36,392 nucleotides of DNA from Cytophagaceae bacterium. GTDB taxonomy: Bacteria; Bacteroidota; Bacteroidia; Cytophagales; Cytophagaceae. The stretch covers positions 1 to 36,392 of the forward strand of contig JALONH010000032.1 of the NCBI GenBank assembly GCA_025455005.1. Reading direction: 5' to 3'. Below the pieces are notes generated by a model that was not told the DNA's origin, searched no databases, and saw only the letters and a program-made list of their open reading frames with translations. Positions 22,301 to 36,392 of the stretch are shown one piece after another. Every line of letters starts with the position of its first letter. Within the stretch, counting starts at the first letter, position 1. A program made the translations under genes and the position numbers.

Positions 22301-23821
22301 TTACAATAACGACACGCCGGTCATTTCTTTTGGCTGCTGCACGCCCATTAATGCTAATATGGTTGGGGCTAAGTCACCCAACTTGCCATTTTTTAATGTG
22401 CCGGTGTAGGTACTGTCTACTAAAATACAAGGAACTAAATTAGTAGTATGCGCAGTATTAGGGCTTCCATCCTCATTGACCATTACATCTGCATTCCCAT
22501 GATCCGCTATCACTATCACGCTATATCCGTTATCTACTGCAGTAGTAATCACCGATTCAGCACAATCGTTTACCGTTTCGCAGGCTTTAACGGCAGCTTC
22601 AAACACACCGGTATGACCAACCATATCCGGATTGGCAAAATTCAAGCATACAAAATCTACTTCCTTCGTTTTTAACTCTGCATTAATTTTGTCTTTAATT
22701 TCATGTGCACTCATCTCCGGTGCTAAATCATATGTGGCAACTTTTGGTGAGGGACACAATAACCGTTTTTCCCCATCAAATGGTTGCTCTCTCCCGCCGG
22801 AAAAGAAAAAGGTTACGTGAGGATATTTTTCTGTCTCCGCTATACGAATTTGTTTTTTTCCCGCATTAGCCAATACTTCTCCCAACGTCATTTGTAAATT
22901 ATCCTTATCAAAAATAACATGTACGTTTTGGAAGGTATCATCGTAGTTGGTCATGGTGACATAATACAAGTCGTGCTTGAACATATTATGTTCATGAAAA
23001 TCTTTTTGAGTTAAAGCTAAAGTAATTTCTCTTCCCCTATCGGTTCTATAATTAAAACATACCACTACATCCCCTGTTTCGATTTTTGCCAGAGGTTTAC
23101 CGGTTGCGTCTGTTATCACTACCGGTTTAATAAACTCATCTGTAACACCTGCAGCATACGAAGCTTTAATAGCGGCAGTAGCGGAGGTATCCGTTGTTCC
23201 TTCAGCATGGATCATCACATCGTATGCCAACTTCACTCTTTCCCATCGATTATCTCGATCCATTGCATAATAACGACCTACGATGGATGCAATTTTACCC
23301 GTTGTTTTTTGAGTATGTGCTTCTAATTCTTCAATAAATCCTAGACCACTTTTAGGATCACAGTCACGACCATCCGTAAAAGCATGTATGAACACATCCT
23401 TCAATCCGGCTTCGTTCGCTATCGAACACAACCCTTTTAAATGATTGATATGAGAGTGCACTCCACCATCGGATACTAAGCCTATAAAATGTACTTTCTT
23501 CTGATTGGTTTTGGCGTAGTCGATAAGTGCCTTAACGGCTGGTTCTTGGGATAAGGTACCTTCTTCTACCGCTTTGTTAATCTTAACTAAATCTTGGTAT
23601 ACCACTCGACCGGCACCTATATTCATATGCCCTACTTCGGAGTTTCCCATTTGACCTTCCGGCAAACCAACCGCCAATCCCGATGCTTCTAGTTTGCTGT
23701 GTGCGTATTTTGTAAATAATCCATCAATAAAAGGTGTTTTTGCCGCTTCTATTGCCGATACTTCCGGGTTGGTGCCTAATCCCCAACCATCTAAAATCAT
23801 TAAAACAACTTTTTTATTCAT
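22301..23821 (-). CDS. gpmI: 2,3-bisphosphoglycerate-independent phosphoglycerate mutase
   Basis: GpmI, 506 residues, standard length. It interconverts 3- and 2-phosphoglycerate in glycolysis and gluconeogenesis using two Mn ions. Visible landmarks are VLMILDGWGLG with metal ligand D11, GQMGNSEVGHMNIGAGR with the phosphorylated Ser61, HAFTDGRDCDPKSG, YYAMDRDNRWERV, FNYRTDRGREIT, EKYPHVTFFFSGGRE, and the second metal site in NFANPDMVGHTG and VIADHGNAD. The frame ends GVSLL. It is monocistronic, with a -7 box upstream and a terminator downstream. Confidence 0.98.
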   Translation of the reverse strand: MNKKVVLMILDGWGLGTNPEVSAIEAAKTPFIDGLFTKYAHSKLEASGLAVGLPEGQMGNSEVGHMNIGAGRVVYQDLVKINKAVEEGTLSQEPAVKALIDYAKTNQKKVHFIGLVSDGGVHSHINHLKGLCSIANEAGLKDVFIHAFTDGRDCDPKSGLGFIEELEAHTQKTTGKIASIVGRYYAMDRDNRWERVKLAYDVMIHAEGTTDTSATAAIKASYAAGVTDEFIKPVVITDATGKPLAKIETGDVVVCFNYRTDRGREITLALTQKDFHEHNMFKHDLYYVTMTNYDDTFQNVHVIFDKDNLQMTLGEVLANAGKKQIRIAETEKYPHVTFFFSGGREQPFDGEKRLLCPSPKVATYDLAPEMSAHEIKDKINAELKTKEVDFVCLNFANPDMVGHTGVFEAAVKACETVNDCAESVITTAVDNGYSVIVIADHGNADVMVNEDGSPNTAHTTNLVPCILVDSTYTGTLKNGKLGDLAPTILALMGVQQPKEMTGVSLL

Positions 23822-23864
23822 AATCTTTAATACGTTTTCTGCGCTTTTACAATTATTTAGCCCT

Positions 23865-23872
23865 CAAAAATA
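23865..23872 (-). promoter_or_regulatory. -7 box TATTTTTG for gpmI
   Basis: On the minus strand TATTTTTG is a perfect TAnnTTTG 43 nt upstream of the gpmI ATG at 23821. A clear -33 element was not found at the expected distance. Confidence 0.45.
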
Positions 23873-24223
23873 CAAGAACTTATGTGGCTTAAAAAGCATA
23901 TTTTCAAAACAGAGTAAAAAAACAGTCCCACTTCGACATTTTTAAAGCCTAAAGCGTTTTGTTATACACCTAGCCGGATTTTGTTTCTGAATAGAATGGC
24001 TTCTTTTAGAATTCATCATCCGCACTTCATGTTAATGCGATACGTTCAGTCCCTTTTAAAGAATAAAAGTACTGGCTAACGCACCCTATAATTATAGATT
24101 ATTGGATATCAAATCGATCGTAAGGATTGGAATAAAAAAATTAGTCGCTGACTTTTAGAAAGTTGTAAAATTTATATTACTGCCTGATAATCATGGCATT
24201 ATTTTCGCTGTAAGTTATCCTGT
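23873..24223. other. Intergenic region between gpmI and DUF4783 gene
   Basis: About 350 nt between divergent genes. No tRNA, ncRNA or repeat was recognised. A TATTTTCG sequence about 20 nt before the ATG at 24224 is a one-mismatch -7 candidate for the plus-strand gene. Confidence 0.4.
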
Positions 24224-24643
24224 ATGTATAAAAGAGTAAACGTATTTCTTGGATTGGCATTATCTATTTGGCTTTCAAGCTTTTTAGTAGTGACTAACGG
24301 TCATCAATCAGTTCCGGAGCTATTGGAAGTAGTGCGAATACATATTAAAGGAGGACAAGCCAAAGAGTTGTCGAAATACTTTAGCGAAACAGTAGAGCTG
24401 CAATTATTAGATCAAGATCGAAAAGGGTATAATCGAACACAGGCGGAATTCATTGTAAAAGACTTCTTTTCAAAACATCCGGCCAGCGACTTTAAATATA
24501 CCTATAAGAATATAGAAAAAGAGGAGTTCAAATTAGCTATAGGCGACTATACCTATCCCAATGGAACAATGCGAGTGACGATAGTTATCAAACCCTCCGG
24601 TACTTCTTATTCTATAGACTCTATGGTAATTGAACGCAAATAA
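24224..24643 (+). CDS. DUF4783 domain protein, exported
   Basis: A 139-residue exported protein. Residues 1-27 are a signal peptide (VFLGLALSIWLSSFLVVTNG). The remainder matches what I recall of DUF4783, an NTF2-like alpha+beta fold found mainly in Bacteroidota: HIKGGQAKELSKYFSETVEL, SRTQ-like YNRTQAEFIVKDFFSKHP, FKLAIGDYTYPNGTMRV and a last strand SIDSMVIERK. No function is known; the fold could bind a small ligand or lipid. It lies directly upstream of nadC, an arrangement I remember from other Bacteroidota, but a hairpin terminator and a separate nadC promoter lie between them. Confidence 0.75.
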   Translation: MYKRVNVFLGLALSIWLSSFLVVTNGHQSVPELLEVVRIHIKGGQAKELSKYFSETVELQLLDQDRKGYNRTQAEFIVKDFFSKHPASDFKYTYKNIEKEEFKLAIGDYTYPNGTMRVTIVIKPSGTSYSIDSMVIERK

Positions 24644-24670
24644 ATAAATTTCTCTTAGTTTAACTTTGCG

Positions 24671-24696
24671 AACCCCGGACGTGTTCCGGGGTTTTT
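24671..24696 (+). terminator. Intrinsic terminator after DUF4783 gene
   Basis: AACCCCGGA (24671-24679) pairs with TCCGGGGTT (24685-24693), a 9-bp GC-rich stem with loop CGTGT, followed by TTTTTAATTTT. Strong rho-independent terminator, 27 nt past the stop. Confidence 0.88.
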
Positions 24697-24727
24697 AATT
24701 TTACTTCGGTATTGTCCATTTTTGTTT

Positions 24728-24735
24728 TAATTTTG
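24728..24735 (+). promoter_or_regulatory. -7 box TAATTTTG for nadC
   Basis: TAATTTTG is a perfect TAnnTTTG only 6 nt before the nadC ATG at 24742. A start site 5-7 nt downstream would make the message leaderless or nearly so. It argues against an earlier TTG start at 24712. Confidence 0.5.
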
Positions 24736-24741
24736 CTCGCC

Positions 24742-25602
24742 ATGTACGATTATTTACAACCTGAATCCCTGTATCGATTTATACAAACTGCTTTATCGGA
24801 AGATGTAGGCAGTGGTGATCATACTTCTTTGGCTACCATTGCCAAAGGGACAACGGGAGATGCGATTATGTATTTAAAGGATGATGGTATCATTGCCGGT
24901 GTGGAGGCAGCTGAAATGATTTTCAAAACCGTTGACCGTAGTTTAACCACTGAATGGTACATTCAAGACGGATCACCATTTCAAAAGGGAACGGAAGCGT
25001 GTAAAGTTTCCGGATCCGTACATTCTATATTACAGGCAGAACGATTGGTATTAAATACGATGCAACGTATGAGTGGGATAGCCAGTGGGGTTAATGCGTT
25101 GCAAAAAAAGATCGAACATACGGGGACTAAGTTATTAGACAGCCGTAAGACAACCCCTAATTTTCGCATGATGGAAAAATGGGCAGTTGCCATAGGAGGT
25201 GGAGTGAACCATCGGTACGGATTGTTTGATATGATATTAATTAAAGATAATCATATTGATTTCGCCGGAGGAGTGGGTCCAGCCTTACAACGGTGTACAG
25301 ACTATATAAAAACGACAGGCCTTGACCTGAAAATAGAAATAGAAGCACGTACGTTAGCTGAAGTGTCAGAAGCTCTTTCTACTGGCATTCCGTTTCGTAT
25401 CCTTTTAGATAATATGCCTATCCCTCTTTTAAAAGAAGCTGTAGCTTTGATCGATAACAAGGTGGAGACCGAAGCTTCCGGTGGTATAACATCCGATACT
25501 ATAGTGGCGGTAGCAGAATGTGGAGTGGATTTTATATCCATGGGCGCTATTACCCATAGTTATAAAAGTAAGGACATCAGCCTAAAAGCAAAAAATTACT
25601 AA
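24742..25602 (+). CDS. nadC: Nicotinate-nucleotide pyrophosphorylase (carboxylating), quinolinate phosphoribosyltransferase
   Basis: NadC, 286 residues from ATG 24742. It joins quinolinate and PRPP to give nicotinate mononucleotide, CO2 and PPi in NAD synthesis. Landmarks are ALSEDVGSGDHTS at the N-terminus, QAERLVLNTMQRMSGIAS, the substrate-binding DSRKTTPNFRMMEKWAVAIG with basic residues, GGGVNHRYGLFDMILIKDNH, IEIEARTLAEV, ILLDNMP and EASGGIT for phosphate binding. A TTG 30 nt upstream in frame is unlikely as start, because the promoter -7 box falls between the two. No nadA or nadB is in this window. Confidence 0.96.
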   Translation: MYDYLQPESLYRFIQTALSEDVGSGDHTSLATIAKGTTGDAIMYLKDDGIIAGVEAAEMIFKTVDRSLTTEWYIQDGSPFQKGTEACKVSGSVHSILQAERLVLNTMQRMSGIASGVNALQKKIEHTGTKLLDSRKTTPNFRMMEKWAVAIGGGVNHRYGLFDMILIKDNHIDFAGGVGPALQRCTDYIKTTGLDLKIEIEARTLAEVSEALSTGIPFRILLDNMPIPLLKEAVALIDNKVETEASGGITSDTIVAVAECGVDFISMGAITHSYKSKDISLKAKNY

Positions 25603-25650
25603 GAGAGAGGGGCGTTCCATCTTATATTTAAGTCCTCTGTTAAGAAAAAA

Positions 25651-25748
25651 ATACTTAATACTTAATACTTAATACTTAATACTTAATACTTAATACTTAA
25701 TACTTAATACTTAATACTTAATACTTAATACTTAATACTTAATACTTA
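25651..25748. repeat. Heptamer tandem repeat (ATACTTA), 14 perfect copies
   Basis: Fourteen exact head-to-tail copies of ATACTTA fill 98 nt, ending 24 nt before the ATG of the YcxB-like gene. The unit is neither interrupted nor degenerate, which implies recent expansion or continual slippage. It lies in the promoter/leader zone between nadC and 25773, so copy-number change would alter promoter spacing or leader length and not a reading frame. Confidence 0.97.
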
Positions 25749-25772
25749 CCAAAAGAATTTATTGCAGCCGGA

Positions 25773-26195
25773 ATGAGTTCGATAATAAAAGAACAATGGA
25801 TGTACGCCGGTATACCATTGGCTATGATTGTAGTTGGTCTCCTCTGGTCAGAAGGCCGGTGGTGGTTTATTCTACCGGCAATTATTGGGGCTTCTATCTA
25901 TCTTTTATTTTGGTATTTACAGTTTGTGGCAGCAACACAAATGGAGCAAAGTAAGGTATTGTTTCAAAAATTAAGTTATGAATTTGACAGTAGACAAATT
26001 TTAATCAAGTTAAACGATAAACAAGGAAGCCCACTAAAATGGGAAATGATTAAACGGGTGAATAAAAGAAAAAATGACTATCTCTTTATTATGGGTAGAG
26101 GACAGTTTTTCTTGTTCCCATATAAAATATTTAACTCGGATAACGACTTGCGCTTTTTAGATTCCATCCTGGAAAGAAAAGGCTTATTAAAATAA
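25773..26195 (+). CDS. YcxB-like small membrane protein
   Basis: A 140-residue protein with two transmembrane helices near the N-terminus (about 11-25, GIPLAMIVVGLLW, and 30-50, WWFILPAIIGASIYLLFWYL), followed by a cytoplasmic beta-rich domain that resembles the YcxB-like family: KLSYEFDSRQILIKLNDKQG, SPLKWEMIKRVNKRKNDYLF, then FFLFPYKIFNS and a terminal helix LRFLDSILERKG. Function is unknown in the family. It lies downstream of the heptamer array and ends 5 nt before a strong terminator, so it is monocistronic or shares a long message with nadC. Confidence 0.65.
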   Translation: MSSIIKEQWMYAGIPLAMIVVGLLWSEGRWWFILPAIIGASIYLLFWYLQFVAATQMEQSKVLFQKLSYEFDSRQILIKLNDKQGSPLKWEMIKRVNKRKNDYLFIMGRGQFFLFPYKIFNSDNDLRFLDSILERKGLLK

Positions 26196-26200
26196 TACAG

Positions 26201-26228
26201 AAAAAACCTCGAAAAGTCGAGGTTTTTT
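26201..26228. terminator. Strong hairpin terminator after YcxB-like gene
   Basis: AAAAAACCTCGA (26201-26212) pairs with TCGAGGTTTTTT (26217-26228), a 12-bp perfect stem with loop AAAG. A-tract and T-tract flanks allow termination in both directions. Confidence 0.88.
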
Positions 26229-26333
26229 ACTTTTCATTGATTAACTAGAATCTAGTAATAGTATTTTTACAAGAACCTTTTTTCATATATACTGATTATT
26301 ACTTTATTATCAGACATTTATAAATATTAGTAT

Positions 26334-26341
26334 TACCTTTG
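26334..26341 (+). promoter_or_regulatory. -7 box TACCTTTG
   Basis: TACCTTTG is a perfect TAnnTTTG 21 nt before the ATG at 26363. The upstream 100 nt are AT-rich; no TTTG at exact -33 spacing was seen. Confidence 0.5.
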
Positions 26342-26362
26342 TTATGCACATAGGCAATATCT

Positions 26363-27865
26363 ATGAAAATTTTATATTTACTCATTTTTGCATTATTCTT
26401 TGTTTCTACAAGTTCTGGTCAATCGCCGGAGAACGATTGTAACTATAGCCTTGGGGTAGATTATACCTTTTGTGTTCGTTCAGAGAACGAACGTATTTGG
26501 AATTCAAACGAACCTTTTGATACACTCTTTATTCGTATACCGGAAAACCCCAATGTTATTCAAATTCAATGGAATATTATAGGTCAAGGTAAATTTATAG
26601 GCTATCAAGATAAGCACATTGTGTATTTAACGAGTACAAAGGACATTGATCAAGCCCCAGTTTTATTGATTGGCAGTATACAATTACGCCGATGTACTTC
26701 GGTATTAATCGATACAATAGCGGTTCAGTTGCGTTCTTTACCGGAGCAGATACCTAATGGATATGTTTATTATGCATCTTGTGCAGACACTGTTCGTTTA
26801 GGTCAAGCGTTTAATGGTATACGACCTTTTTCATCCCATCCGGAGTATTCTGTTCTATGGCAAAATCTAAACGGACTTGGTCATATAATGTATGCGGATT
26901 CTTCAGAAGCGGTGTATATTCCCCGAGTTGGCAGCGAATCCTCATTGGTTATTGTAAAGAAGCAAAGTAGTTATAAGGGTTGCGCTGTAGATGAGTTTGT
27001 TTACTTAACCCTTCAATCGAAGCCAACCGTTTTTGCCGGCAAAGATATTTGGATTCAGGATTCAACTGCTCGAAATAATGGTACTAAAATTCGATTGCCG
27101 AGTGCTTACACCGGTAACCCATTATCTACTTTGTACCGTTGGAGTCATACCGGATCCGGATTTTTCCTTCAAAACAACAGAGACGGAATGGTGTACCGAG
27201 CCCATACAACTGATTATGATAAAGGGTATGTTACGATTACCTTACAAACAAACTACTGTGAAAGCATCCAGAAAGATTCCTTTTTAATTTTTCTAAACCC
27301 AACTCCTTTGTTGCAACCTCAACTTCCCAGGATATTGCACGCCAATCAAACCATTGAGCTATCTTTAAACACCACTTTAGGGATACCGGTACAATCTTGT
27401 TATGTGTTTGGTGACCATCATCAATTTATAGAGCAAGTGAAACCGGGAGATAATGTACTCTTACAAGAGAGCAATGAGCAATTTTCAAATGGGGTTATTT
27501 ATTTGGAATACCATATACAATCCGATGATGCCACGATAGTCGTTAAGGATTCTATGTTAACAACAAAGTACCATACATCTACGTCTCCAATAGCCCTTAC
27601 AAGACTTTCTAAAATGCCGTCTGCGTCCCTTTCTCTTTATCCCAATCCTTGTCTTTCGGCTATTTCATTCTCCCTACCTAGCAGTACAGGTATAGCGGCT
27701 ATTTTATTTACCCATACTTTGGGAAAACAACAAATAAAGACGGATGTATCTTTTTTTGAAGATCATTACATCTGTTCGGTTGATGATTTGTCGCAGGGCG
27801 TATACCTTGTTGAAATTATTACAAAAGAAGGAATGCGGTATTATAGTAAAGTAGTGAAAGAATAA
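26363..27865 (+). CDS. Secreted Ig/PKD-like protein with T9SS type A sorting domain
   Basis: A 500-residue exported protein with signal peptide (MKILYLLIFALFFVSTSSGQ). The body contains several Ig/PKD-like beta modules with paired Cys and tryptophan-centred strands (IQIQWNIIGQGKFIGYQD, YSVLWQNLNGLGHIMY, LYRWSHTGSGFFLQN). The last 75 residues are a T9SS sorting domain: SLSLYPNPCLSAISFS, SQGVYLVEIIT and terminal SKVVKE. No catalytic motif was recognised. It converges on the GH9 cellulase gene, with a hairpin between, and may be an accessory surface protein of the cellulose locus, but that is only positional. It has its own -7 box upstream. Confidence 0.83.
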   Translation: MKILYLLIFALFFVSTSSGQSPENDCNYSLGVDYTFCVRSENERIWNSNEPFDTLFIRIPENPNVIQIQWNIIGQGKFIGYQDKHIVYLTSTKDIDQAPVLLIGSIQLRRCTSVLIDTIAVQLRSLPEQIPNGYVYYASCADTVRLGQAFNGIRPFSSHPEYSVLWQNLNGLGHIMYADSSEAVYIPRVGSESSLVIVKKQSSYKGCAVDEFVYLTLQSKPTVFAGKDIWIQDSTARNNGTKIRLPSAYTGNPLSTLYRWSHTGSGFFLQNNRDGMVYRAHTTDYDKGYVTITLQTNYCESIQKDSFLIFLNPTPLLQPQLPRILHANQTIELSLNTTLGIPVQSCYVFGDHHQFIEQVKPGDNVLLQESNEQFSNGVIYLEYHIQSDDATIVVKDSMLTTKYHTSTSPIALTRLSKMPSASLSLYPNPCLSAISFSLPSSTGIAAILFTHTLGKQQIKTDVSFFEDHYICSVDDLSQGVYLVEIITKEGMRYYSKVVKE

Positions 27866-27868
27866 AAA

Positions 27869-27892
27869 AAGCCGTTTCAAATGAAACGGCTT
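27869..27892 (-). terminator. Terminator of GH9 cellulase gene (convergent)
   Basis: AAGCCGTTTCA (27869-27879) pairs with TGAAACGGCTT (27882-27892). On the minus strand the stem is followed by TTTTTTTATT, an intrinsic terminator 18 nt past the GH9 stop. It begins 3 nt after the stop of the plus-strand gene and may also slow that transcript. Confidence 0.82.
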
Positions 27893-27910
27893 GTAACGTT
27901 CAATTAATTT

Positions 27911-30900
27911 TTATTGTTTGATGAGCTTCACCGTTTGATACAGGTTTCCATCCCATGAAGTTAGAAAATAAATACCCGGCGCTAATCCTTCTCCAATATT
28001 CCATTCTTGATTCGCTCCTTTGTTAGTCCATTTTTCAATTGTTTCGCCGCTTACTGTTGTTAATACATAATCTACGGCCGGATCCGATGAAGAAATGTAC
28101 TGAATCGTAGTGTAACCGGTAAATGGATTTGGTTTTGCTACCAAGCTGTTTTTAAACGTTGCGTCTACAGATACTATCGCGCTATAATCGGTCGATCCAT
28201 CCAGATCCACTTGTGCTATTCTGTAATACGTTGTAGAGGCTAATGGTGCTGCATCAACTAACGAATAGCGTTGTAAAGCGGAAGAGTTACCGCTGCCATC
28301 CACCACCGAAAGGTCGCTGAAATCCACTCCATTTGAAGAACGCTGAACGATAAAGTAATCGTTATTTACTTCTTCAGAGGTTATCCATTCCAAGAGTACT
28401 GTATTATCGATTCGTCGAGCAGAAACCGACACCCAATCAACCGGAAGAGTACAACCTGTATTGGCGGCCACTACCGGTAAGCGATCACACGGAGTCCCCG
28501 TTTGAAATTGAATATTATAGAAGAAGTGGTAGTCGTTTCCATCTCCATCTCCTCCATTTTCACCGGTAATCGTAAATACACCGGCAGGAGTAGAATTATA
28601 TGGATAGGTAGCATTACCTTGTTGCCATATTGGGGAACCATTAATGGAACCGGAAGCTGGTTGTACGATTCGTAAACGTAAATTCGTACCCCATGCAGAT
28701 TGTATGGTAAAGTTAGTAAAGGTAAAGTTAATCATTATGGTGCCACAACTTGCACAAGAAGGAGTTGCTGCATTAGAAGTAAATATTCTTGTTGGAGAAA
28801 GCGCGTTCCCATTATTATCTAAAACTTCTACTGCTATTGTACCTGCAGAGGTAGCATAGGTTGTAAATGGAACAGATAAAGAGGTTATGGTAACATTGGA
28901 CGAAATCGTAAAAGCTAAGTGATTTCCATTTGGCCAGCCCCATTGTTGGTCTCCACCAGTCAATTTACTTGTAGGCCCAACACTACCGCCGGTAGCACTC
29001 ATATCTTGAACGTAGTATGTGCCGGCGGAGGGTGCATTATAATTTAAACCGGTAGCAACTGAAGAGCCGGCAGTTGGTACTGTAAACCATTGATAAGGGC
29101 CAGCACCGGCATTTGTAATACTTAATGGAATCGAACCGGATGCGGAGCAACCGTCTACCGGAGTCGGCAAGGAACTCGTTAAACGAATAATGTCGTTATT
29201 GTTACACGAACCTTGTGTAACGGTAAGTCTATAATAACCCGCTTTACGCACATTTGATAAGGTGGAGTTGGTTCCGGCAGTTATATTGGTATAAGGACCT
29301 GCTAAAGCATTTGCTTCTGCCCATTGCCAAGTAGCACCGGAGTAAGAAGCTAGGTTCGAAGGGGCTAGATTATACGATGCAGGTTGACAGATATTTTGAT
29401 CAGCCCCTAAACTAGGTACAGGAATAGAGTTAGTAAAGTGTATGGTATCTCGTTTGGTGCAAGGGGCCCCTACGGTAGTGGAGTCTCTTTCTACAATATA
29501 GCTGCCTGCTGAGGTAATGCTGTAGGTACGGTTTGTAGCTCCTGAGATAAGCGTTTTTGTACTTCCGTTCCATGTATACCAACGATAAGATATAGCTCCA
29601 CCGGGATTTCCTGCGTTTGCATCTGCTAGATAAGGTAGTGTGGTATTACAAGTAGAACGGTCCGGACCTAGATTGGGTTGACGACAGTTACCTACGACAA
29701 CAGGAGCTAACCTCCAGTTAATAAAACCTAAAGCACCTACTAAACCTACGTTATAATCAACACAAACTTCAGAGTTCACATAATCACTTCTATCGTCATT
29801 ATACGTTCCGTCTCGTTTACCGCCAACTAAGGCGCCTAATTGTTGGTTTTTTGTTGGAATAGTAAGAACGGTGGCATTGCCGGGATTGTCATCTCTTAAA
29901 TAAACATTTCTATGGTGAGGGTATTGAGGCGATAAAAAAGGCCCCCCTGCTGCCGGCGTAAAGCCTACAACGTAACTACGTTTGCTTCCGTTTCTTCCCA
30001 TGATATAATCTATATCTGCATAGATTAAATTCATAGTTGCCGTAGAGTAGTCATTGTTAAGTTTGGCATATAAAGCAATTAAGAAAGAAGCATTCGCATT
30101 ATAGCGCAAAGCACCCCAACCTCCACCATGTGCGTTATAAATGCCTAATCCATTTCTGCTTCCACCAGCCATAAAATGACCGGAAATACGATTGTTAAAT
30201 TGTGTTCTGGCATTGTTATCACCTAATAATGCCATGTTGTACAATGCTACCTCGCCATCGTTTGCATAGTCAAAGGTATAATATTGGTTCGGGCCTACAA
30301 CGCCTGCCCCTTTATTATTTGCTGCCGGGTATTGTAGCGCTTCCGTTCTATAGGCTGTATTGTTCGTAGCCCAATACATTTCAGAACACATGATGGCATA
30401 ATTATCTTCCCATGCGTCATTCCCACCATAGAATCCTTCTGTGCAAGAAGGGTCTCCGTTGCCCTTATTGTTTTTCGCGTAATTGTATGCATAATTCGCA
30501 TGCGTTAAACATAAAGCTGCATACGCTGCATCGTAGGGTTGATACATTCTGGACATCAACGCCAAAGTGGCTGCTACCATAGACGCTTGGGTAGATTCAC
30601 CGGGATTCTTACACACCGGACGTGCTTGACCACCATTATTTTGACTCAAGGTTTGCATTTTTACGGCAGTAGTCCATTGAGCATGATCCCAATCTCCATC
30701 TCCAACTTGATAGTAAAAATTATTATTATCTCGAGCACATTTAATTAAGTAATCACATTTGTGCTTCATTTCATCTAAAACATCCGGAATACCATTAGGG
30801 TCATGACAAGTACCCTCATAGGTATAGTTTCCACATGTATTGTAACCATTATACGTAAAACTATATTTATCATCGTATCCGGTAGGCCATTCTGCATATC

Positions 30901-31219
30901 CCTTCAACAACATGTAAGCAGAATAAAATCCGGTAATACCAAACTTTACGTGATCTCCACAGTCGTGCCATCCACCGGACATATCATACGCACCATCGGC
31001 ATCCCCTACAAAGGCGGTACCTCGTAAACTTGAGTTAACGCCGGTGGGTAAATGATTGTATAATGTCCAATTGTTATTACCGGAGCGTTGTGCACCGTAA
31101 AAACGAGTGGACATCCATAGTGCTTTTTTATAATCATTTGTCGTCCAATATTGAGCCAACAATTCGAACTGAGTCAAAAGAATGAGTAAAAGAGTAGTAA
31201 GTTTAAACTTTGTGGACAT
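27911..31219 (-). CDS. GH9 cellulase (endoglucanase), modular, T9SS-secreted
   Basis: A 1102-residue enzyme from ATG 31219; an upstream in-frame TTG at 31225 is unlikely. After a signal peptide (LTTLLLILLTQFELLAQ) the GH9 domain fills residues about 24-505: DMSGGWHDCGDHVKFG holds the catalytic base pair of aspartates (D86, D89), PHHRN the substrate His, and SDYVNSEVCVDYNVGLVG the acid Glu484. The usual Ala of DAGD is Cys here. Unlike many GH9 enzymes there is no N-terminal Ig domain and no classical CBM. Next come three Ig-like segments (about 515-740), an aromatic-rich module (745-910), a fibronectin-III-like domain (LPVDWVSVSARRIDNT onward) and a T9SS sorting domain (about 1025-1102, VAKPNPFTGYTT, terminal VKLIKQ). 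It should cleave beta-1,4-glucan at or near the cell surface. The upstream GH8 gene shares its C-terminal modules. Confidence 0.95.
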   Translation of the reverse strand: MSTKFKLTTLLLILLTQFELLAQYWTTNDYKKALWMSTRFYGAQRSGNNNWTLYNHLPTGVNSSLRGTAFVGDADGAYDMSGGWHDCGDHVKFGITGFYSAYMLLKGYAEWPTGYDDKYSFTYNGYNTCGNYTYEGTCHDPNGIPDVLDEMKHKCDYLIKCARDNNNFYYQVGDGDWDHAQWTTAVKMQTLSQNNGGQARPVCKNPGESTQASMVAATLALMSRMYQPYDAAYAALCLTHANYAYNYAKNNKGNGDPSCTEGFYGGNDAWEDNYAIMCSEMYWATNNTAYRTEALQYPAANNKGAGVVGPNQYYTFDYANDGEVALYNMALLGDNNARTQFNNRISGHFMAGGSRNGLGIYNAHGGGWGALRYNANASFLIALYAKLNNDYSTATMNLIYADIDYIMGRNGSKRSYVVGFTPAAGGPFLSPQYPHHRNVYLRDDNPGNATVLTIPTKNQQLGALVGGKRDGTYNDDRSDYVNSEVCVDYNVGLVGALGFINWRLAPVVVGNCRQPNLGPDRSTCNTTLPYLADANAGNPGGAISYRWYTWNGSTKTLISGATNRTYSITSAGSYIVERDSTTVGAPCTKRDTIHFTNSIPVPSLGADQNICQPASYNLAPSNLASYSGATWQWAEANALAGPYTNITAGTNSTLSNVRKAGYYRLTVTQGSCNNNDIIRLTSSLPTPVDGCSASGSIPLSITNAGAGPYQWFTVPTAGSSVATGLNYNAPSAGTYYVQDMSATGGSVGPTSKLTGGDQQWGWPNGNHLAFTISSNVTITSLSVPFTTYATSAGTIAVEVLDNNGNALSPTRIFTSNAATPSCASCGTIMINFTFTNFTIQSAWGTNLRLRIVQPASGSINGSPIWQQGNATYPYNSTPAGVFTITGENGGDGDGNDYHFFYNIQFQTGTPCDRLPVVAANTGCTLPVDWVSVSARRIDNTVLLEWITSEEVNNDYFIVQRSSNGVDFSDLSVVDGSGNSSALQRYSLVDAAPLASTTYYRIAQVDLDGSTDYSAIVSVDATFKNSLVAKPNPFTGYTTIQYISSSDPAVDYVLTTVSGETIEKWTNKGANQEWNIGEGLAPGIYFLTSWDGNLYQTVKLIKQ

Positions 31220-31542
31220 GAGCAAATTCCTACGTTATGGATAAATACGATAGGTTAAAAATAGGAAAAATTTATTTATTGTGTTTATCTAATGTAAGAT
31301 TATATTATTTATATAAATAGTTTGATTATAACAGTAATTTATTATAATAATACAAATATTATCAATATCCATACTTATGTTTTTGAACAAAAAATTCCAT
31401 TTTTTTAATTTTAGCCACATTCGTAACTTTCTTCTAGGAATTGAACCTGAAAAAATTCAATTTTTTCATCAAATTATTTTGACACTTTATGGTTGAAAAA
31501 AGAGAAAAACAGGAGTATTATCAATAGTTATGGATGTAGGTA
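31220..31542. other. AT-rich gap between GH8 and GH9 genes
   Basis: The cellulase genes are separated by 367 nt (31220-31586). The part nearer GH9 is very AT-rich with no ORF and no perfect TAnnTTTG on the minus strand. It probably holds the GH9 promoter; no operator was recognised. Confidence 0.45.
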
Positions 31543-31572
31543 ATAGGCCTTAAAATAACTTTTAAGGCCTAT
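31543..31572 (-). terminator. Hairpin after GH8 gene, weak terminator
   Basis: A 12-bp stem (31543-31554 with 31561-31572; core TAGGCCTTAAA) has a 6-nt loop, 14 nt past the GH8 stop. The minus-strand sequence after it (TTACCTACATCC) lacks a U-run, so it may protect the 3' end or pass polymerase on to GH9 instead of fully terminating. Confidence 0.55.
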
Positions 31573-31586
31573 AAGAATAGATATTT

Positions 31587-34500
31587 TTAATTTTTAATTA
31601 TAGACAAACGTTCCATTGAATCAGGAGAAACAATTTGAATAATATATTTTCCTGATGGTAGGTTGGCGCCAAAAGAGGCTGATAAAGAGTCCCCATTATT
31701 ATTTACTTCAACAATTTCAACTATTTGACCTAAGGTATTGATAACCTCAATTTTGTAAATGTTTGAAATAGATACAGTATTAATCAGAGTAAACTGCTCG
31801 GCACTAGGATTTGGGAAAACCATCCAGTTAACGTCCTTAGAATCTAAAGAAGCCGAGAAAACAGATGAATATGATTCTGTACCGTCAAAATCAACCTGAC
31901 GAATTCGGTAATACCACAATCCCGAAGGTACAGATGCATCATAATAGGAATAAGTTGAAAGAGCAGCAGAAGTACCTTTACCAGCAACTGTTTCTATAGT
32001 TCTAAAGTTAACTGCATCAGAAGAACGCTGAACCTCAAATTGTTTATTATTTACTTCATTTGCAGTAATCCACTCTATGCGAACGTTATTTTTTTCAACA
32101 ATTGCACGTTGAGATATCCAATCAACCGGAAGTGTACATCCTATATTGGCTGCTATTACCGGTAAGCGATCACAAGGTGTCCCGGATTGGAATTGTATAT
32201 TGTAAAAGTAAAAGTAATCATCGGCTTGATTGTTCCCACCTGCGCCACCGGTAATAGTAAATATTCCGGACGGCGTTGAGTTATAAGGATATACTCCACC
32301 TGCATCATTCCAGTTAACATCTCCATTAATAGCACCTCTACTCGTTAAACGCATTCTCAAATTGGATCCCCAAGCATTATTGATTGTGAAAGAGGGAAAT
32401 GTGAACGTTATCAATTGATCATTGCCGGTATTTACGGTAGCATTATTTGAAGTGAAGGTACGCGCTGGAGTAAACGGATTTCCACTTCCGTCTAATATTT
32501 CTACTGTGATGGCACCGGAACCGGCACTATATATATCAAACGGAACTCGTAAAGATGTTATGGTAATGGATGAGGTAATGGTAAATCGCATATGATTACC
32601 CAAATTTATTCCCCAGTTTGTTAAACCACCCAATAACGTTGTAGGCCCTACACTTCCTCCTACTGCACTCATATCTTGAACATAATAGGTTCCGGCTGCT
32701 GGGGCATTGAAATTTAATCCTGTGGCTAAAGAAGCGCCTCCGGTAGGTACATTGTACCATTGGTAAGGTCCACCGCTTGCGTTGGTTATACTTAACGGAA
32801 TGGAACCGGAAGCTGCACATCCATCCACCGGTGTAGGTAAGTTGGAAGTTAACACCACTTCATCGAACGTAGAGGCACAACCAGAAATCGAAGCCGTTAA
32901 TCTATAGGTTCCGGCTGTTCTAACATTTGCAAGAGTAGAGGAGGTTCCGCCGGTAACATTTGTTCCATTCAATGCCCACTGCCAGGCAACTCCCGGTGGG
33001 AAACTAGCACCATTTGTAGGCGCAAGGTTATATGAAGCCGGCGAACAAATCACGGCATCTGCCGGTAAAGCAGGAGCCGGTAGAGTTGAAGAAATGACTA
33101 CCGTATCTGTTCTTTGGCAAGAAGAGGAATCTCTTACTACTACATATACACCAGGGCCATTTACAGCTGTAATGCTCAGCGTTGTTTGGGATGGTGACGA
33201 TGTTACTAGGTTTGTGGGACTTGGGCTATGGCGCTTCCAAGTGTACGTAACGTTTGTAGCAGTTGGAGTATTCGAATTTAAACTAACCGGGAAACCGGAT
33301 CCACAGGTAGTTCTGTCTGCACCTAGATTGGGCGTTCTACAAACGGCACCATAAGGATTCCAAAAATTACCGGATGCTAAAAACATATACATTACAGCTA
33401 ATGAATTTTGGTAATAGGGGGCATCGTCTAAACGGTCCGTTCCACTATAACCACTTAACGATGTTTTGGTAATCCAGTTTTGGTACCAAGCGTTCAATTG
33501 ACTTTGCGACACTGCAGTTTGAGATAAAACAAAGGCTCCGTAGAAAGCTGAATTTCGATCACCATTGGATGGATTACCGGTGGCGCGGTCGTAATTAGTA
33601 AAGATATTATTTACGCCTTCCGATTGAGCCCAATTCCCTACTTGTGTTAACCAGGTATCGGCTGCAGCCGTACCCCACCATAAATAATCGGTTGCAATAC
33701 GCCAAGGAGTTCTAGCTGCATCATATTGATAAGAATCCGGACCGGCACCTCCCGTTGCAGAATACGAGCATTCAGCACTATTGGGTGCTGGAACTGATCC
33801 GTTTGCTCTGGTCCATGCCGAAACCAAGTGCGTACTCGAATTTTTATTGGCATTGATTAATGCATAGGAATGGTCCGCTAATAAATTCCAAGCGGTTGCT
33901 TGAGAAGGAATATGTTGAGCAAAAGCTCTATAATAGGCCGGAGCAAAGTAAGAGATGTTGATACAAGTACATGTGGTGTTACTTTGAAAAGCATCCCCAG
34001 GTCGCAAAACATAAAATGGTGATATTCCCCCTGGACCCGTACATGCTGCATGACCTCCAGCATTACCAGGTAAATTTGTTTCGTAATTATAAATAGCTGT
34101 TATTAATGCTGTGGCATCTGCTCCATAATTGTAGGGTGAGGTAGCTGTTGGCCACTGTGCTTCAGCTATCAATAAAGCCATGGCAGCATCTAAATCACCG
34201 TCTGTAGCCCCATTAGAACTAATTACACCTGAACAACTAACCATCCAATGCATTAAACCATTGCTGTTTCGATATTGTCTATATCCAGCCCACAGTCTGT
34301 CGAATAACACTTTATCCCCTTGATAGGCTGCTAATAACATTCCATACCCTTGGCCTTCTGAAAAACTTGCAGATCCTGATGTTGAGTTTCGAACTAAGGA
34401 GTATGACCCACAACTCGTAACATAATTTGATCTCCATGAGTTATACCATGTTTGTGCTCTCGATGAGGATGCTGTAGCAGACTCTACAGTTTGGTTAAAC

Positions 34501-34604
34501 CCATACGGTGAAACGAAATTTCTTGGGAATGTGTAAGTCTGAGAGTATCCCTTTAGGATAAACGTACAGAATAGAAGGGAAAGTAGTATATACTTCATGT
34601 GCAT
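31587..34604 (-). CDS. GH8 endoglucanase, modular, T9SS-secreted
   Basis: A 1005-residue enzyme. The signal peptide is MHMKYILLSLLFCTFILKGYSQ (ATG 34604; ATG 34598 is also possible). The GH8 catalytic domain covers residues about 25-418: FSEGQGYGMLLAA carries the acid Glu83, GATDGDLDAAMAL the conserved Asp135/Asp137, and YQYDAARTPWRIATD the Asp295 expected as base in GH8 members of this type. The family attacks beta-1,4-glucan (or chitosan, xylan) with inversion; next to GH9, cellulose is the likely target. The C-terminal half (from CRTPNLGADRTTC, residue 422) repeats the GH9 layout: Ig-like segments, an aromatic-rich module (649-809), a fibronectin-III-like domain (LPVDWISQRAIVEKNN) and a T9SS sorting domain (about 925-1005, WMVFPNPSAEQFTL, terminal LSIIKN). 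Confidence 0.95.
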   Translation of the reverse strand: MHMKYILLSLLFCTFILKGYSQTYTFPRNFVSPYGFNQTVESATASSSRAQTWYNSWRSNYVTSCGSYSLVRNSTSGSASFSEGQGYGMLLAAYQGDKVLFDRLWAGYRQYRNSNGLMHWMVSCSGVISSNGATDGDLDAAMALLIAEAQWPTATSPYNYGADATALITAIYNYETNLPGNAGGHAACTGPGGISPFYVLRPGDAFQSNTTCTCINISYFAPAYYRAFAQHIPSQATAWNLLADHSYALINANKNSSTHLVSAWTRANGSVPAPNSAECSYSATGGAGPDSYQYDAARTPWRIATDYLWWGTAAADTWLTQVGNWAQSEGVNNIFTNYDRATGNPSNGDRNSAFYGAFVLSQTAVSQSQLNAWYQNWITKTSLSGYSGTDRLDDAPYYQNSLAVMYMFLASGNFWNPYGAVCRTPNLGADRTTCGSGFPVSLNSNTPTATNVTYTWKRHSPSPTNLVTSSPSQTTLSITAVNGPGVYVVVRDSSSCQRTDTVVISSTLPAPALPADAVICSPASYNLAPTNGASFPPGVAWQWALNGTNVTGGTSSTLANVRTAGTYRLTASISGCASTFDEVVLTSNLPTPVDGCAASGSIPLSITNASGGPYQWYNVPTGGASLATGLNFNAPAAGTYYVQDMSAVGGSVGPTTLLGGLTNWGINLGNHMRFTITSSITITSLRVPFDIYSAGSGAITVEILDGSGNPFTPARTFTSNNATVNTGNDQLITFTFPSFTINNAWGSNLRMRLTSRGAINGDVNWNDAGGVYPYNSTPSGIFTITGGAGGNNQADDYFYFYNIQFQSGTPCDRLPVIAANIGCTLPVDWISQRAIVEKNNVRIEWITANEVNNKQFEVQRSSDAVNFRTIETVAGKGTSAALSTYSYYDASVPSGLWYYRIRQVDFDGTESYSSVFSASLDSKDVNWMVFPNPSAEQFTLINTVSISNIYKIEVINTLGQIVEIVEVNNNGDSLSASFGANLPSGKYIIQIVSPDSMERLSIIKN

Positions 34605-34894: not shown

Positions 34895-36392
34895 TTATTC
34901 CACAATCACTTTCTTTATAAATTGAATTTCGTCCACTTGAACTTTTAAGAAGTAAACACCGGCTTGACTGGTTTCCGTCATTACTTTTACAGCTCCGGTA
35001 CTCATTACTTGAGGTTCAATGCGTTGGATAGTTTTACCGGCAGCATCCATTACCTCTATAGATATTAATTTACCAGCTGCATTGTTATTTTCTAAATAGT
35101 ATTCTCCTTTAGAAGGGTTAGGGTATACGGACCATGCAGCTGCTTCCTGAATGGAGCGAGAAGAAGTCGTAGGACTTACCGTTATCGGAATATTAATGGA
35201 AGAGGTTTGTCCCAAAGGATTTGTTTGAGTAACACTTACAGATCCGGAGGAAGAACCAAAGTTGACAACGATGGTATTGGTACCTTGACCACTTACAATA
35301 GTAGCTCCCGGAGGGACTGTCCAGTTGTATTGCATACCGGAAGTAGATGGAACGCTATATGTAACGTTTGACTGATTAGCAATTACGGTTGCCGGTCCTG
35401 TGATAGAAGTGGCAAAGGTTGGCAACGGCTGGATGGACATAGTGGTTATGGAAGATGTGGTTGGGCTTCCCGTCACACAAGTCAAATTAGAGGTCATACG
35501 AACACTTATTTGATTACCATTCGCAATAGAAGTAGACGTGTAGGTATCATTCGTAGCACCCGATATAGGACTTCCATCTAACAACCACTGATAAGCAGGA
35601 GCAGAACCTCCTCCTACCGGTGTTGCGGTGAAGGTGATCGATTGTCCTTGGTATAGTGTACCAGAAGGACTCACGGTAATGGAAACAGATGCCACTAGAT
35701 TATTCGTTACCGTAACCGATACGTTAGGAGAGGTAGCTGTAGGTGTAGTAGCACAGGTAGAATTGGATGTCATCACTACGCTAATGATATCTCCAGTAAC
35801 TAATGAAGTAGAAGAATAAGTAACATTCGTTGCCCCTGAAATGGCGTTACCGTTTCTTCTCCATTGATAGGTTGGAGCTGTTCCACCGTTACCGGGATTA
35901 GCCGTAAAGGTTGCGTTTTGACCGGAACAAATGGTAGCAGAAGTTGGAGTTATACTGACAGCTGGAGTCACCGTACCGCTAACAGAAATGATTACCGCGT
36001 TTGAGGTAACAGGAGTAGTAGAAGCACAGGCGGCATTAGAGGTCATACGAACTGTAATAGACGAACCGTTGGTTAAAGTTGTTGAAGAATAGGTAGCATT
36101 CGTAGCTCCGGCTATCGACGTTGTTCCATTGAACCATTGATACGTCGGGGTACCGCCATCTACCGGGTTTGCCGTAAAGGTAACGTTCGTTCCGGTACAG
36201 ATGGTAGTAGAAGGCGTAGATATAGTTACGGATGGCGTAACTGCTGGAGTTATTGTAATTACTACCGCGTTAGAGGTAACAGGAGTAGTAGAAGCACAAG
36301 CCGCGTTAGAGGTCATACGAACTGTAATAGACGCACCGTTGGTTAAAGCTGTTGAAGAATAGGTAGCATTCGTAGCTCCGGCTATCGACGTA
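34895..36392 (-). CDS. Ig-like-repeat secreted protein with T9SS sorting domain (5' end beyond window)
   Basis: The minus-strand frame is open from the window edge to the stop at 34895 (about 498 residues); the true start is outside. Residues nearest the edge repeat a 90-92-residue Ig-like unit at least three and a half times; each has a Cys in ICTGTNVTFTANPVDGG, a central Trp-type strand (PTYQWFNGTTSI), GATNATYSST and a second Cys in MTSNAACAST. The last unit has lost one Cys (LYQGQSITFTATPVGG). A PKD-like domain follows (NWTVPPGATIVSGQGTNTIV), then a T9SS sorting domain (WSVYPNPSKGEYYL, SQAGVYFLKVQ, terminal IKKVIVE). The missing N-terminus may carry another catalytic domain, since it lies next to the cellulases; this cannot be judged here. 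Confidence 0.88.
   Translation of the reverse strand, partial: TSIAGATNATYSSTALTNGASITVRMTSNAACASTTPVTSNAVVITITPAVTPSVTISTPSTTICTGTNVTFTANPVDGGTPTYQWFNGTTSIAGATNATYSSTTLTNGSSITVRMTSNAACASTTPVTSNAVIISVSGTVTPAVSITPTSATICSGQNATFTANPGNGGTAPTYQWRRNGNAISGATNVTYSSTSLVTGDIISVVMTSNSTCATTPTATSPNVSVTVTNNLVASVSITVSPSGTLYQGQSITFTATPVGGGSAPAYQWLLDGSPISGATNDTYTSTSIANGNQISVRMTSNLTCVTGSPTTSSITTMSIQPLPTFATSITGPATVIANQSNVTYSVPSTSGMQYNWTVPPGATIVSGQGTNTIVVNFGSSSGSVSVTQTNPLGQTSSINIPITVSPTTSSRSIQEAAAWSVYPNPSKGEYYLENNNAAGKLISIEVMDAAGKTIQRIEPQVMSTGAVKVMTETSQAGVYFLKVQVDEIQFIKKVIVE
35440..36392. repeat. Tandem 270-276 bp repeats coding for Ig-like units
   Basis: The same landmark (GGTCATACG, coding for the RMTS strand) recurs at about 35492, 36041 and 36311, with a diverged copy near 35768. 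Positions 35991-36122 and 36261-36392 match at about 94% by eye over 132 nt, so the outer units are recent duplicates and the inner ones older. Confidence 0.85.

Follow-up and report, generated by a model that had tools for sequence, protein, structure and literature searches.

Homologous tails with conflicting module histories in neighbouring GH8 and GH9 cellulases of a Cytophagaceae bacterium

The 36,392-nucleotide window analysed in this study is one entire contig (JALONH010000032.1, assembly GCA_025455005.1) of a Cytophagaceae bacterium whose genome comprises 2.94 Mb and is 99.6% complete. It carries two adjacent predicted cellulase genes, both on the minus strand and separated by 361 bases: an upstream gene of glycoside hydrolase family 8 (GH8; 31587-34604, an open reading frame (ORF) of 1005 residues) and a downstream gene of family 9 (GH9; 27911-31225, an ORF of 1104 residues counted from TTG, with an ATG at 31219, two codons later, as the likelier start). 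Alignments and module trees show that these genes encode homologous C-terminal tails whose modules have conflicting histories, and that they occupy a conserved chromosomal slot. We consider it likely that GH8 and GH9 are old slot neighbours with related tails, and that an internal block of one tail was replaced later by that of the other, probably in the direction from GH9 to GH8.

Both proteins are composed of a catalytic domain, three Ig-like modules (IgA, IgB, and IgC), a beta-sandwich of approximately 170 residues (JR), an FN3-like domain (FN), and a type A sorting domain of the type IX secretion system (T9SS), and both begin with a hydrophobic stretch that resembles a signal peptide by eye. 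In GH9 (all minus strand), these are the catalytic domain at residues 30-503 (29717-31138), IgA at 517-598 (29432-29677), IgB at 604-686 (29168-29416), IgC at 690-744 (28994-29158), JR at 747-920 (28466-28987), FN at 927-1018 (28172-28447; homologous to that of GH8), and the sorting domain at 1032-1103 (27917-28132). The corresponding parts of GH8 (minus strand) are the catalytic domain at residues 47-417 (33354-34466), IgA at 425-505 (33090-33332), IgB at 511-589 (32838-33074), IgC at 593-647 (32664-32828), where the block common with GH9 starts, JR at 650-818 (32151-32657), FN at 825-916 (31857-32132), which is perhaps part of that block, and the sorting domain at 930-1004 (31593-31817). The catalytic domains, the three Ig-like modules, and JR of both proteins and the FN of GH9 were delimited with our own hidden Markov models (HMMs) and the sorting domains with TIGR04183; Pfam Ig_7, which marks IgC, matched in both proteins. 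The initial annotation had proposed that both tails follow the same module order behind unrelated catalytic domains, and the ORFs, Pfam, TIGR04183, and our HMMs confirm that order.

Aligned with each other, the two tails score 1380, while 200 shuffles gave 60 ± 9 with a maximum of 91, which rules out chance similarity. The mutual score of the catalytic domains (50) is at shuffle level (mean 48, maximum 78), in agreement with their proposed unrelatedness. The likeness along the tail is very uneven, with identities of 38% in IgA, 60% in IgB, 81% in IgC, 57% in JR, 47% in FN, and 26% in the sorting domain. Seven strings had been quoted as common to both tails, and by eye all of them occur in both translations; they are confined to the region from the IgB/IgC linker through the first FN residues (GH8 residues 589-829), and likeness in a few strings need not reflect the history of the whole tail.

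Module trees were built from ORFs with a JR match of more than 100 residues, namely 19 GH9, seven GH8, and 22 other or truncated proteins. The initial annotation had fixed the window pair, and catalytic orthology defined the GH8 groups; the tests of IgC and JR apart and of the placement of the GH8 block used groups that were named after the tree had been seen. Partial copies in loci L086 and L123-L125 and the split GH8 tail of Sporocytophaga G018 (L058) were left out, and L074 (CotH) and L113 are outside the trees because they lack a JR match of that length. One piece of the split L058 GH9 was kept as a tail row, and the L058 pieces were kept in the catalytic trees. Genomes G015-G018 (Spo15-Spo18) represent one genus, and E1 denotes G079.

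In the tree of IgA and IgB together (44 rows), the window GH9 joins the GH9 proteins of G009 and G010 (support 100/99; G010 and G009 are also nearest in IgA), and the window GH8 joins the GH8 and GH9 proteins of Sporocytophaga (95/89). The window pair as sisters is rejected for IgA+IgB (log-likelihood difference 71.3, approximately unbiased (AU) test p = 7e-9) and for IgA alone (AU p = 4e-5), and IgB alone gives no resolution (p = 0.25). In the tree of IgC and JR together (48 rows), by contrast, the window proteins are sisters (99/95). Nearest to them is the GH9 protein of G066, from another family (98/95), and they lie within a set of 12 rows (99/92) comprising nine GH9, two GH8, and one truncated protein, with the GH8 proteins of Sporocytophaga and G001 placed elsewhere in the tree; joining the window GH8 to Sporocytophaga GH8 is rejected (log-likelihood difference 121.8, p = 5e-8). 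The sorting-domain tree has no starred branch. The per-module trees that the initial annotation had suggested as a check are thus in its favour for IgC+JR and against it for IgA and IgA+IgB; because each IgA is nearer to proteins of other genera, the outcome named there as speaking against the claim applies to the IgA part. Of its duplicated module chain with a swapped catalytic domain, what stands is the homology of the tails and the lack of homology between the catalytic domains, whereas the conflict among module trees argues against duplication of the whole chain.

In the GH8 catalytic tree (21 rows), the window GH8 joins that of G010 (99/97), then those of Sporocytophaga and G001, and seven of the eight tail-bearing GH8 proteins, including the window's, form one group (100/100), with the eighth, L103 of G010, outside. 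The GH9 catalytic tree leaves the window type without resolution beside a firm second type of ten rows, including two neighbouring GH9 proteins of G003.

A scan of identity along the window GH8, in which the window GH9 was compared with the mean of three Sporocytophaga GH8 proteins, indicates where the affiliation changes. Identity in IgA is 0.19-0.40 to the window GH9 versus 0.41-0.67 to Sporocytophaga GH8, and the picture in IgB is mixed. From about residue 584 identity is 0.83 to the window GH9 versus 0.53 to Sporocytophaga GH8, followed up to about residue 883 by 0.43-0.83 versus 0.08-0.50; the window GH9 is closer at every step up to about residue 928, and in the sorting domain both values are low. 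Because the Sporocytophaga GH8 proteins have no FN match, like is compared with like only to about residue 820, and the contrast beyond that point says little. The apparent switch is the LTSNLPTPV linker before IgC (residues ~584-592; 32829-32855, minus strand), and the far end is not well placed. On either side of this point the histories are supported and conflict with each other, the pattern expected of a segment exchange.

At four-fold degenerate sites the two genes are identical at 0.22-0.44, compared with 0.29-0.32 expected from codon usage; values are nominally slightly higher than the expectation in JR (19/49) and FN (11/25). Because these synonymous sites are near saturation, any copying is old. 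The two genes share no exact DNA match longer than 18 bases, which rules out an assembly chimera and, together with the near-saturation, a recent conversion tract. The absence of a near-identical DNA tract between GH8 and GH9 is compatible with an old exchange, as such a tract is expected only of a recent one.

In the window, as in Spo16, Spo17, Spo18, and G009, the pair is flanked by YcxB, nadC, DUF4783, and gpmI, with gene order and orientation conserved. In the window, Pfam places gpmI at 22301-23821 (minus strand), DUF4783 at 24224-24643, nadC at 24712-25602, and YcxB at 25773-26195 (all plus strand). The flank lies beside both GH9 and GH8 in loci L054, L057, L058, and L089 and beside GH8 alone in L127 and L128. 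On the far side of the slot, Spo16, Spo17, Spo18, and G009 carry a gene that we take from its sequence to be FeoB-like; it is not visible in the window because an Ig/PKD gene there runs into the contig end. The two halves of the slot are approximately 33 kb apart in Spo15, and in G010 a GH8 gene adjoins YcxB in the opposite orientation. The slot of G002 and G003 holds one GH8 and no GH9, and that of G004 runs into the contig end, with the G004 GH8 adjoining the FeoB-like gene on a separate contig. Neither a GH8 nor a GH9 gene was observed next to YcxB-nadC in the stretches of G001, G005-G008, and G011-G014, several of which are short or truncated by contig ends. Because the slot pair is common to other genera, the neighbourhood is older than the shared block.

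The occupants of the slot also differ between genera. A single clade of slot GH8 proteins (eight rows) is rejected (log-likelihood difference 295.7), and the window and Sporocytophaga have a slot GH8 type that differs from the one in G009, G002, and G004; this tree did not include the slot GH8 of G003, which has a full-length domain. Across genera, the slot (window 22301-34604, L089, L098/L127, and L100) is thus occupied by GH8 genes of two clades, and seemingly either the gene itself or only its catalytic domain was replaced in place. In Sporocytophaga G018 (L058:4853-12924), the GH8 gene is broken into two ORFs, and an opposite-strand ORF separates two pieces of GH9 sequence, which may reflect an assembly error, an insertion, or decay.

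Mixed tails occur in three genera besides that of the window. The G010 GH8 has GH9-like IgA+IgB (96/85 with the GH9 proteins of G001 and E1), its IgC+JR joins the G001 GH9 (95/92), and its FN joins the GH9 of its own genome (97/86, rough values). Grouping its block with that of the window GH8 is rejected (p = 1.3e-4), which suggests two events, or one followed by another. The IgA+IgB of Sporocytophaga GH9 is nearer to GH8 tails, and joining it to the window-type GH9 proteins gives p = 1.3e-4 in a test which presumes that those proteins form one group, a point on which the catalytic tree is not firm. The G066 GH9 (L109:5535-8558, plus strand) combines a catalytic domain and IgA+IgB of the second type with window-type IgC+JR.

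Taken together, GH8 and GH9 would have been long-standing neighbours in a conserved Cytophagaceae slot, both T9SS-exported cellulases and each originally with its own tail of related modules. The IgC-JR of GH8, and perhaps its FN, would later have been replaced by the copy of the neighbouring GH9. The mechanism would have been recombination of one homologous tail with the other, by gene conversion or unequal crossing-over; the catalytic domains and IgA, and probably also the sorting domains, would have remained unchanged. A transfer from GH9 to GH8 is suggested because the window GH8 block is nested within GH9 tails.

Several observations weigh against this replacement or limit it. The direction is read from nesting among GH9 tails, and the near-saturation of synonymous sites means that no fresh conversion tract is present. 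With IgC alone, the best tree lacks a clade of the window pair (p = 0.23, not rejected); JR alone recovers the pair at 98/77, an unstarred branch; and the FN tree, with long branches and an unsettled bootstrap, recovers it at 88/62, which is not firm. The IgB tree leaves the history of the pair unsettled. The IgC+JR of the G009 GH9 falls outside the GH9 set, so the GH9 blocks are not one clade either. In IgA the window GH8 is nearest to Sporocytophaga GH8, but Sporocytophaga GH9 belongs to that group too, and the best tree does not pair the window and Sporocytophaga GH8 proteins to the exclusion of others (p = 0.08-0.14). The 19 family genomes include no second genome of the window's genus. 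Finally, a single clean switch leaves two patches unexplained: GH8 residues ~689-733, in the middle of JR, are nearer to the G010 GH9 (0.60) than to the window GH9 (0.43-0.47), and over the first half of IgB the window GH9 has higher identity to the window GH8 (0.62-0.66) than to its orthologue in G010 (0.41-0.48). The IgB patch may be another exchanged one.

Three other explanations were weighed. The tail may have been duplicated at the family level, with the window pair retaining an old block and the GH8 proteins of Sporocytophaga and G001 having replaced theirs with a foreign module. We regard this as unlikely: the G010 GH8, the closest catalytic relative of the window GH8, also has a GH9-type block, as such a history would allow, but the window GH8 block is then predicted to fall with that of the G010 GH8 or outside the GH9 tails. 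The first arrangement is rejected as given above (p = 1.3e-4), and a group of nine GH9 rows and one truncated row without the two GH8 proteins is rejected as well (p = 3.8e-4).

It seems quite improbable that both genes acquired the block separately, whether by horizontal transfer or from a third gene. The block closest to those of the window pair (98/95) is that of the G066 GH9, whose tail is otherwise of a different GH9 kind, and blocks therefore do move between proteins and perhaps genomes; against this, the window proteins resemble each other more than either resembles any of the remaining 46 rows, and the genome holds no third close copy (other matches are 37-42% identical). Likewise quite improbable is a duplication of the whole tail beside itself followed by a swap of the catalytic domain, which would account for the same module order, the adjacent genes, the tail score of 1380, and the sister position in IgC+JR, but not for the rejection of the pair in IgA (p = 4e-5) and IgA+IgB (p = 7e-9), the just 26% identity of the sorting domains, or the tailed GH8 and GH9 in the same slot of Sporocytophaga.

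The tail extends well beyond this pair. An IgC-JR query matched five places in its own genome. Besides the pair, these are a CotH-LTD protein and two proteins in which Pfam recognizes nothing else at E up to 0.001. The three additional tail copies are only 37-42% identical and none is close, so an intragenomic donor was considered and set aside. The query matched in 16 of the 19 genomes of the family (own genome counted) and, at E up to 1e-10, in 37 of 390 genomes of the order, an even draw from a larger group. Carriers other than GH8 and GH9 were surveyed with Pfam in nine proteins, eight of them from the 22 tree rows and the ninth being L074. Two GH18 proteins of other genera (L087:5555-8218 and L122:2466-5171) bear the tail behind the GH18 domain, and two CotH-LTD proteins (L074:2577-7571 and L067:5045-10024) bear it also. 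Because CotH, GH18, and other proteins carry it too, it is a general T9SS tail rather than a cellulase-only chassis. A wider generalization, which we offer only tentatively and think rather doubtful, is that secreted-cellulase tails of this family have undergone repeated remixing among linked genes with unrelated catalytic domains, switching close to conserved linkers; the slot would stay fixed while the GH8 type is replaced, and catalytic and tail parts would be exchanged independently, perhaps so that neighbouring enzymes stay similar in their binding or placement.

T9SS export of both enzymes is probable, because both sorting domains exceed the TIGR04183 cut-off of 23 bits (30.7 bits in GH9 and 38 bits in GH8) and SprA is present. 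Export would be accompanied by loss of the sorting domain. The Pfam T9SS sorting domain was also matched on both proteins, with the GH9 match below the Pfam cut-off (20 versus 27 bits). SprA_N has one match in the genome (E 5.2e-162), SprA being the only T9SS component searched. Cohesin (PF00963) had no match in this genome; the control search was positive in one of 14 named genomes, and dockerin was not searched. The absence of cohesin matches and the single SprA match agree with the earlier description of these enzymes as a non-scaffoldin set.

The catalytic domains were recognized by Pfam in GH9 (E 7.5e-84, 283 bits against a cut-off of 27.7) and in GH8 (E 3.3e-29, 102.4 bits against 24). 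In PDB alignments, D88 and D91 (HDCGD) and E486 (DYVNSE) of GH9 align with the corresponding motifs of 4zg8, a solved GH9 enzyme, and we take them to be the catalytic Asp pair and Glu. E83 of GH8 (SEGQGYG) aligns with the Glu of CelA (1cem) that is Gln in 1kwf, and D295 in YDAAR aligns with YDATR of 1cem; presumably these are the catalytic acid and base, as in CelA. The catalytic motifs of both predicted enzymes are intact, and both predicted domains may cleave cellulose.

JR matches no Pfam family: across eight members only weak matches were obtained, the best beyond Ig_7 being HYR_4C (E 0.012, under the cut-off), with no PHR family at E up to 0.5 and no carbohydrate-binding module (CBM) family among them. 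It has no sequence relative in the PDB, where one match was at chance level (E 0.33). AlphaFold2 models of the GH8 JR, computed from nine rows, reached a predicted local distance difference test (pLDDT) score of 73 for JR alone, compared with 55-60 for the four other models; in a longer model, pLDDT was 90-96 over residues 81-170 and 57-83 over the rest of JR. VIA-align ranked three PHR domains first (Z 9.8, 8.4, and 8.2 over 144-148 residues), followed by a row at 7.1, and the top fold matches are the mammalian BTBD2 and MYCBP2 domains at 10-12% identity. The CBM6 structure 1uxz scored below PHR (Z 5.2). Foldseek with the JR model returned nothing at E 0.001, and one PHR chain appeared at E 0.17 among the best 50 matches listed. 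Viral capsid chains and an insect toxin also occur in the fold lists as low-ranking beta-sandwich matches. With low confidence, JR may therefore be modelled as a PHR-like beta-sandwich that is alignable with the PHR domain but has low identity and no Pfam PHR match; a shared PHR fold shows no function. The model of the GH8 FN matches FN3 structures (Pel3 FN3, Z 11.8), and the module is predicted to be an FN3 fold. The Ig and FN modules may serve as spacers and JR may have a binding role.

In the 361-base gap directly downstream of GH8, an inverted repeat was found by eye at 31543-31572, with 13-base perfect arms, a 4-base loop, and no T-run, which may end or guard the GH8 transcript. With this hairpin between them, GH8 and GH9 may or may not belong to a single operon. 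A pattern match places a terminator-like hairpin (27869-27892, minus strand; ten pairs and then a T-run) after GH9; such patterns total seven in the region against a shuffle mean of 6.1. The gene at 34895-36391 (minus strand), which lies upstream of GH8 and is truncated by the contig end, encodes a T9SS protein whose Ig-like repeats closely resemble one another and which also has a PKD_6 domain and a sorting domain of the T9SS. The gene at 26363-27865 (plus strand), located between YcxB and GH9, encodes a 500-residue protein with a weak T9SS sorting domain that, at E 1e-15, was matched only in the window among the loci compared.

The closest known counterparts are T9SS cellulases of Cytophaga hutchinsonii and Sporocytophaga myxococcoides (CHU_1335/CHU_1336, CHU_1075, and MYP proteins), which, in the portions of text dealing with them, share GH8 or GH9 domains, Ig-like folds, unassigned regions, and a sorting domain with the window pair, and have large regions of no known role (PMC6247017). 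Those portions place CHU_1335/1336 in the extracellular soluble fraction, and they describe architectures but do not mention module histories or tail exchange between neighbours (PMC6247017). As far as the relevant sections go, digestion of crystalline cellulose by Cytophaga-type bacteria is described as unresolved, with no known exoglucanase reported and with long non-catalytic enzyme parts lacking a known function (PMC6247017; PMC10992098). Tail exchange is likewise not discussed in the corresponding sections of three papers (PMC10992098; PMC5831590; PMC4928363), and nothing on point about exchange or shuffling in such T9SS tails was found in the open-licence PMC literature. If the tail block was indeed exchanged as a unit, IgC-JR-FN would be a candidate functional unit whose binding is directly testable. 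Modular cellulases, including cellulosomal ones, combine catalytic domains with exchangeable accessory modules by domain shuffling. The present case differs in that distal modules of a T9SS tail are concerned, in two linked genes with unrelated catalytic domains and with no cohesin found. It resembles concerted evolution or gene conversion in that neighbours are more alike in one segment than they are to their orthologues, but here the likeness covers part of the coding region only and is old.

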